From Synechococcus sp. NB0720_010 (lineage in GTDB: Bacteria; Cyanobacteriota; Cyanobacteriia; PCC-6307; Cyanobiaceae): 64,000 nucleotides of DNA. This document shows, in pieces, positions 36,430 to 38,191 of the stretch; the stretch's first letter is position 1, and each line of letters opens with the position of its first letter. The DNA lies in the NCBI RefSeq assembly GCF_023078835.1, contig NZ_CP090898.1, positions 808,045-872,044 of the forward strand, given 5' to 3'. Both the position numbers and the translations under genes were made by a program. A model generated the notes under the pieces. That model did no database searches. It saw only the letters and a program-made list of their open reading frames with translations, and was not told the DNA's origin.

Positions 36430-36498
36430 CAGACGATTGAGGGCCAGAAGCAGTCAGGCCGGTTGATAGCTTGGCTTGATTGCTTCAAAAGGTCTCAG

Positions 36499-37662
36499 GT
36501 GGACATTCAGCTCGGCCGTTCCCGTACTGTGCGCCGCGCCTACGGCATCGATGAAATCGCCTTGGTGCCAGGCGGTCGCACGGTCGATCCGGCCGTCACC
36601 GACAGCAGCTGGACCCTGGGGGGCATCACCCGTGAGATTCCGATCATCGCCAGCGCCATGGATGGCGTGGTTGATGTGGGGATGTGCGTCGAGCTGGCCA
36701 AGCAGGGCGCCCTGGGCGTTCTGAACCTTGAAGGGGTTCAGTGCCGCTACGACGACCCCAACCCTGCGCTCGATCGGATCGCCTCGGTGGGCAAGGAAGA
36801 GTTCGTGCCCCTGATGCAGGAGCTCTACAGCCAGCCCGTGCGGGAAGACCTGATCCGCAAGCGGATCGCTGAAATCAAAGAGCGCGGCGGGATTGCCGCC
36901 GTCAGCGGCACGCCCGTGGCCGCCCTGAAGTTCGGCAAGGCCATCGCCGAGGCCGGTGCTGATCTGTTCTTTGTGCAGGCCACGGTGGTCAGCACGGAAC
37001 ACATCGGACCGGAGGGCCAAGAGAGCCTGGACCTCGAGGCCCTGTGCCGCGATTTCGGCGTTCCCGTGATCATCGGCAACTGCGTCACCTATGACGTGGC
37101 CCTCAAACTGATGCGCGCCGGCGCCGCTGGCGTGATGGTGGGCATCGGCCCTGGAGCCGCTTGCACCTCCCGCGGCGTCCTCGGCATCGGCATTCCCCAA
37201 GCCACCTCGGTCGCCGACTGCGCTGCAGCCCGCGACGACTACATGAAGGAGAGCGGCCGTTACGTGCCGATCGTTGCCGATGGCGGCATCGTCACCGGCG
37301 GTGACATTTGCAAGTGCATCGCCTGCGGCGCCGATGCCGTGATGATCGGTTCACCGATCGCCCGCTCCGCCGAAGCCCCCGGTCGTGGCTTCCACTGGGG
37401 GATGGCCACACCCAGTCCCGTTCTTCCCCGCGGCACCCGCATCAAGGTGGGAACAACCGGCAGCCTCGAGAAAATCCTGCGCGGCCCGGCCTCCCTCGAC
37501 GACGGCACCCAAAACCTGCTGGGCTGCATCAAGACCTCGATGGGCACCCTGGGGGCACGCACCCTCAAGGAGATGCAGCAGGTGGAGGTGGTTGTCGCCC
37601 CCTCCCTGCTGACCGAAGGCAAGGTTTATCAGAAGGCCCAGCAATTGGGCATGGGTAAGTAA
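36499..37662 (+). CDS. GuaB3-family IMP dehydrogenase-related protein
   Basis: The product is 387 residues from the GTG at 36499 (MDIQLGRSRTVRRAYG). It has the TIM-barrel of IMP dehydrogenase: the loop with the catalytic cysteine GPGAACTSRGVLG, the phosphate-binding VADGGIVTGGDICKCIACGADAVMIG, and no CBS domains. GuaB3 proteins are the actinobacterial/cyanobacterial short form related to IMPDH in guanine nucleotide synthesis. The frame extends 12 residues upstream to 36463, but that part is not conserved. Yfr1 and trxA follow. Confidence 0.94.
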   Translation: MDIQLGRSRTVRRAYGIDEIALVPGGRTVDPAVTDSSWTLGGITREIPIIASAMDGVVDVGMCVELAKQGALGVLNLEGVQCRYDDPNPALDRIASVGKEEFVPLMQELYSQPVREDLIRKRIAEIKERGGIAAVSGTPVAALKFGKAIAEAGADLFFVQATVVSTEHIGPEGQESLDLEALCRDFGVPVIIGNCVTYDVALKLMRAGAAGVMVGIGPGAACTSRGVLGIGIPQATSVADCAAARDDYMKESGRYVPIVADGGIVTGGDICKCIACGADAVMIGSPIARSAEAPGRGFHWGMATPSPVLPRGTRIKVGTTGSLEKILRGPASLDDGTQNLLGCIKTSMGTLGARTLKEMQQVEVVVAPSLLTEGKVYQKAQQLGMGK

Positions 37663-37680
37663 GCGACCGCGTTAGCCTCC

Positions 37681-37712
37681 GGAGTGTGTGGGGCCAAAAG
37701 CCCTCACACTCC
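37681..37712 (+). other. Inverted repeat overlapping the 5' part of Yfr1
   Basis: GGAGTGTG (37681-37688) is fully complementary to CACACTCC (37705-37712), with an inner GGGC/GCCC stem. The right arm includes the first bases of the Yfr1 core motif. A guaB3 readthrough RNA could fold here and hide the core. Confidence 0.7.
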
Positions 37713-37752
37713 TCACACCCCCCGGCTCGGCGCGTCCGAGCTTTCATTCTTT
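37690..37752 (+). ncRNA. yfr1: Small regulatory RNA Yfr1
   Basis: Yfr1 is a cyanobacterial sRNA that base-pairs with target mRNAs (outer-membrane proteins in Prochlorococcus). The evidence is location (between guaB3 and trxA, the conserved site) and structure: a 5' hairpin GGGC/GCCC (37691-37703), the unpaired ultraconserved core ACTCCTCACAC (37708-37718), and a 3' stem GCTCGG/CCGAGC (37725-37741) with a T-rich tail, acting as terminator. Ends are estimated from the structure; the exact 5' end is not determined. Confidence 0.9.
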
Positions 37753-37835
37753 GGCCGGGACTGGCGGCATCGCCGCCGGCTCCACTCCACCCAGTTACGA
37801 GTTCCTCCAGGCCTCAGCCGAAGCCGAAAACTCGT

Positions 37836-37844
37836 TGCTACATT
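37836..37844 (+). promoter_or_regulatory. Extended -10 element, likely trxA promoter
   Basis: TGCTACATT is a TGn-extended -10 box 24 bases before the trxA ATG, with no clear -35. Its position after the Yfr1 terminator suggests an independent trxA promoter. Confidence 0.35.
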
Positions 37845-37867
37845 CCGAAAACACTGATCCTGACCGG

Positions 37868-38191
37868 ATGTCCAGCGCCGCAGCCGTCACCGACGCTTCC
37901 TTCGAGCAAGACGTGCTCAAGAGCGATGTACCCGTTCTTGTGGATTTCTGGGCGCCCTGGTGCGGCCCCTGCCGCATGGTCGCTCCGATCGTCGACGAAA
38001 TCTCGAAGGAGTTCGAAGGCAAGATCAAGGTCTTCAAACTCAACACCGACGAGAACCCCAACGTCGCCAGCCAGTACGGGATCCGTAGCATCCCCACCTT
38101 GATGATCTTCAAGGACGGGCAAAAGGTCGACACCGTTGTCGGTGCTGTGCCCAAGACCACCCTCTCCGGCACCATCTCCAAGTACCTCTGA
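37868..38191 (+). CDS. trxA: Thioredoxin
   Basis: This is a small dithiol reductant for redox control of metabolic enzymes. It is 107 residues from the ATG at 37868. The active site is W31-C32-G33-P34-C35, and the cis-proline is in [10 protein letters not shown] longer in-frame reading from 37688 is not real, since it runs through Yfr1. It has its own likely promoter and ends in a terminator. m-type family by overall sequence. Confidence 0.97.

Follow-up and report, generated by a model that had tools for sequence, protein, structure and literature searches.

The Yfr1 gene described here is a known, ordinary member of its family with a lineage-specific extension at the foot of its 5' stem, and we infer, at a probability of about 70%, that the partial masking of its core in read-through RNA is incidental, arising from variation in a promoter spacer under loose constraint. 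The gene lies in a 64,000 nucleotide stretch (the window) that is positions 808045–872044 of its source, a complete 2.41 Mb picocyanobacterial genome (G000).

All features given below are on the (+) strand of the window. The Yfr1 gene is matched by Rfam family RF01116 at 37688–37744 with 59.8 bits against a gathering score of 38, and it sits between guaB3 (IMP dehydrogenase-related; open reading frame listed as 36463–37662, stop codon 37660–37662; NCBIfam TIGR01304, 528.7 bits) and the thioredoxin gene trxA (37868–38191; NCBIfam TIGR01068, 141.4 bits, which exceeds the cut-off). This guaB-yfr1-trxA order is a feature of most, not all, known Yfr1 genes. The ultraconserved core ACTCCTCACAC (motif as defined in PMC2190773) was read directly at 37708–37718, inside the Rfam match, where a perfect ACUCCUCACAC is flanked by a stem-loop on each side. 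The 5' hairpin spans 37686–37707 in the register homologous to its relatives, or begins at 37688 according to Rfam, and is supported by the Rfam match, by alignment to the sister locus L013 and by predicted folds. The intrinsic terminator (37724–37744), found both by Rfam and by a terminator search, consists of a hairpin at 37724–37742 followed by the U tail TTCATTCTTT. It is the sole terminator-like site found in the guaB3–trxA interval, so RNA reading through from guaB3 probably ends there as well. The predicted length is 57–59 nt (37686 or 37688 to 37744); known Yfr1 RNAs are abundant, 54–69 nt long and made from their own promoter. The gene thus has the two hairpins, the invariant core between them, the intrinsic terminator and the gene order of RF01116, and differs from it in the upstream extension of the 5' stem foot and in a -10-to-stem spacing of 9 (Rfam register) in the window's subclade rather than the usual 6. 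Yfr10, the second core-bearing RNA of Prochlorococcus (PMC2518516), has the identical core motif, but its location and structure are unlike those of the window gene, which occupies the classic guaB-trxA locus. The "Yfr1" hits of a Red Sea paper proved to be Yfr103 and not Yfr1. We note that no stop codon interrupts the trxA frame across Yfr1 as far upstream as a GTG at 37688 (37688–38191, a 167 amino acid ORF), which is probably meaningless.

The 5' ends of Yfr1 were mapped by RACE by Axmann et al. at 1220973–1221029 in MIT 9313 and complement 1000744–1000797 in MED4 (PMC1242208), and these coordinates coincide exactly with the Rfam matches in the same genomes (G148 and G183), so in both strains the first stem base is the start. 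In both, 6 nt separate a TANNNT hexamer from that start. Among 136 Yfr1 genes from the family, 102 have a gap of 6 nt between such a hexamer and the stem's GTG, 20 a gap of 7 and 10 a gap of 8, a distribution somewhat idealised by a search that favours spacings near 6; a gap of 9 (Rfam register) is confined to the window's own subclade and its four genomes. On this spacing TAGCCT (37673–37678) is the probable -10 element of the yfr1 promoter. In the sister genome L013 the -10 box and CCGGA are unchanged and a complementary arm is lacking, and its alignment with the window (TTAGCCTCCGGA-TGTGCGGG against TTAGCCTCCGGAGTGTGTGGGG) places the homologous stem foot at GTG 37686–37688. By this alignment the Rfam start at 37688 is in a register shifted by two bases relative to the sister, and on alignment and -10 spacing together the RNA probably starts near 37686 (±2) rather than at 37688.

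Directly 5' of Yfr1, between the -10 box and the foot of the 5' hairpin, the arm GGAGTGTG (37681–37688) is the exact reverse complement of CACACTCC (37705–37712). Direct reading of the sequence bears out both this complementarity and the core position given in the first-pass annotation. Yfr1's own stem, in which GTG 37686–37688 pairs with CAC 37705–37707, takes up three of the eight arm bases, and the arm is a straight extension of that stem; with the start taken as 37686, the predicted transcript leaves out only GGAGT (37681–37685), the complement of the core's ACUCC. The match is in part built in, since the foot of the Yfr1 stem is GTG/CAC anyway. The arm-core arrangement is unique within the window and did not occur in 100 shuffles of it. 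A local null is fairer and gives a weaker result: when the 60 upstream bases were dinucleotide-shuffled 400 times, 10 of the shuffles hid the core equally well or better (p ~0.025), while none of 400 did so when the last 20 upstream bases alone were shuffled. No published description of such an arm was found in the open-access literature.

RNAs starting at 37660 or 37681 are predicted to form a 13-pair hairpin (37681–37712, complete only for RNA started at or upstream of 37681) in which core bases ACUCC are paired and UCACAC stays open, and opening the whole core would cost 8.3 or 10.0 kcal/mol, respectively. The cost falls to 0.27 kcal/mol for a start at 37688, where the core is open with probability 0.64, and to 0.28 for one at 37690. 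These folds agree with the earlier proposal that read-through RNA buries the first bases of the core in a long hairpin, though the hiding extends to five core bases and not to the remaining six. The companion proposal, that only promoter-started RNA exposes the core, stands in silico with one reservation: the native start near 37686 may itself let the first two core bases join the stem, for which reason its predicted opening cost is 3.5 kcal/mol. As far as folding calculations go, the structure proposed for read-through RNA is right, but it is not very improbable by chance.

Yfr1 is present in 24 of 25 genomes of the genus and 354 of 392 genomes of the family, and promoter and hairpin were read at 136 distinct family loci, which were gathered by their exact core, so the core is fixed by construction. 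A pairing-competent arm is kept throughout the window's own subclade of four genomes, as GGAGT or, by way of a G-U pair, as GGGGT, with masking of 6.3–10.8 kcal/mol, although the guaB3 stretches of these genomes have diverged. Beyond the subclade the picture is different, and the supposition that the arm is conserved in relatives, on which the earlier proposal let itself stand or fall, largely fails: most of them lack it, family-wide conservation is rejected, and 100 of the 136 Yfr1 genes (those outside the own subclade and the marine Synechococcus genus g26) hide the core no better than shuffled upstream sequence does (25 shuffles per gene, mean rank 0.47, KS p 0.10). Runs of at least five unbroken pairs with the core, counted from -1 in the homologous register, are patchy, being present in 12 of the 136 genes, all in genera g1 and g26, and in none of the 80 genes outside these two; they need six changes on a 64-genome guaB3 tree. 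Long runs exceed column shuffling in g1 (6 against 1.96 expected, p 0.004), an excess that rests on about two events, and column shuffling within g26 gives no significant excess of them (p 0.13). Turnover is fast. In the CC9605-type clade the arm varies between species whose guaB3 sequences are only a few percent apart, very close species having TAGGAGT, TGGAAGT, TGGAGGT, TGGAGCT and TGGAGTG. A scan of named genomes for the exact pattern returned four Synechococcus records and one Streptomyces match, the latter taken as chance. Species outside the family have a different 5' hairpin (GCGGAGAC...GTTTCCGTTC), so the arm is not comparable there.

The spacer in which the arm lies is little constrained: over the 102 promoters of spacing 6, positions -6 to -1 carry 0.07–0.61 bits, and the adjoining first three stem bases 1.7–2.0 bits. 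Small mutations in the foot of the stem most likely gave rise to the arm. Starting from a sister-like ancestor, the nearest subclade would have gone from CCGGA-TGTGCGGG to CCGGAGTGTGTGGGG by insertion of a G and replacement of a C by T, beside an existing CCGGA promoter spacer, so that GGAGT, which complements core bases one to five, would now immediately precede the start site. We read the pattern as drift of a spacer adjoining a stem whose foot extends easily (GTG/CAC, repetitive with the core's AC). Yfr1 itself would have a promoter (-10 TAGCCT, start ~37686) and a terminator of its own; the stem would be lengthened and ACUCC buried in guaB3 read-through RNA, and promoter-started RNA would leave the core unburied except for the possible pairing of its first two bases. 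We read the masking as a side effect because the arm bases are missing in most relatives.

A variant of this by-product reading concerns the origin of the longer palindromes, above all those of g26, which may stem from quasi-palindrome repair, a template switch at the hairpin that copies the downstream strand into the upstream arm. In L073/L132 (genome G137) and L133 (G141) the upstream sequence GTGTGAGGAGTGTG complements all 11 core bases and is continuous with the stem, with masking of 21–23 kcal/mol (up to 22.9), and a full complement continuous with the stem is the shape typical of such repair. Weak opposite-strand Yfr1 matches in G136, G137, G141 and G133 overlie the palindrome and also speak for this origin. 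Intermediate arms in related species (TGAGGTGTGTG, TAGGAGTGTG) look instead like stepwise change, and we regard template switching as a possible but rather unlikely origin. In L058/L129 (G136), as in L073/L132 and L133, the 5' region of yfr1 forms an almost perfect palindrome, and in G137 and G141 ACTCCTCACAC is present on both strands. A core complement of almost full length is common to three diverged g26 genomes, and masking in g26 as a whole is clearly above the shuffled null (17 of 32 genes rank no higher than 1 in 25 shuffles; KS p 2e-13, a value that overstates independence, as do the other masking p-values, since sequences within a genus are related). Neither this masking, nor the excess of runs in g1 and the retention of the arm in the own subclade, is plainly explained by chance.

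The other reading is that masking was selected, the arm being a built-in antisense element that silences read-through RNA like a tethered anti-Yfr1 motif of Yfr2. The predicted opening costs (8–10 kcal/mol in read-through and 0.3–3.5 in native RNA) are what it would expect, as are the independent and stronger arms of g26, and with no separate guaB3 terminator found, transcription may plausibly run on into yfr1. Yfr2 pairs with Yfr1 in MED4 and interferes with it (PMC6778093). The window's own genome has seven copies of the core, three of which are antisense to Yfr2/Cyano-1 genes (RF01701; L200, L203 and L206, near 646994, 1782497 and 2361624) that contain GTGTGAGGAGT, a perfect 11-base complement of the core. 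The arm resembles these genes in bearing, in part, the core complement; they differ in encoding a separate, trans-acting RNA, whereas the window's arm lies in cis and has five bases outside the predicted transcript. Against selection stand the arm's absence from most of the family, its turnover between close species and the exposure of UCACAC in the window's own RNA. The loci L034–L037, whose guaB3–yfr1 spacing is equally short, have no arm and a masking of 0.0–2.5 kcal/mol, below or near that of shuffled sequence, which argues against a general need for masking. Inspection of equally short spacers (L034–L037, L053, L060 and L072), which show no excess masking, gives no support to the arm as compensation for a missing guaB3 terminator. 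Finally, in S. elongatus guaB-yfr1 co-transcription was reported to be negligible beside Yfr1 itself (PMC3219970), which gives little sign that read-through is a problem in need of a remedy. The idea that the arm keeps read-through RNA from acting as Yfr1 thus retains its predicted masking and loses ground on distribution and co-transcription; such a silencing role is possible but unsupported, and selected self-masking appears quite unlikely.

Three more copies of the core in the window's genome (L202, L204 and L205, near 1042823, 2341462 and 2342765) lie in near-identical repeats, a few bases upstream of a possible ATG. In G010, a genome of the window's genus, a second copy of the core, followed by a strong terminator (L027), resembles a Yfr10-like RNA, and L025, L026 and L028 are further weak Yfr1-like matches with no exact core near the match.

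A wider form of the proposal is that some picocyanobacteria, most clearly those of g26, carry a cis anti-Yfr1 sequence, the motif of Yfr2, in the yfr1 promoter, by which guaB3 read-through RNA would silence itself and only promoter-started Yfr1 would be active. By analogy with MED4, where Yfr2 binds Yfr1, self-masking is mechanistically plausible in g26, as the long arms there reproduce the Yfr2 motif in cis; we consider the proposal improbable. Least of all do we favour a native start at or upstream of 37681 in the window's subclade, which would put the long stem in the mature RNA and keep the core always partly paired: the subclade's -10-to-stem spacing is the longest of the 136 genes, but a start at 37681 leaves only 2 nt after the -10 hexamer, against 6 in the RACE-mapped RNAs of MIT 9313 and MED4, and would bury ACUCC, part of an unpaired section in the published Yfr1 model (PMC2190773), and it is highly unlikely.

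A by-product of promoter-spacer variation remains the best account of the arm, and what was found in the window is mostly ordinary; the gain is a better prediction of the Yfr1 start site for this subclade, two bases from that of Rfam. Yfr1 is among the most conserved of cyanobacterial small RNAs, and the arrangement touches the general question of how a cell prevents read-through copies of a small RNA from being active. Genus g26, in a few genomes of which nearly the whole core lies within a palindrome, is a more interesting lead than the window and the right place to test self-masking.
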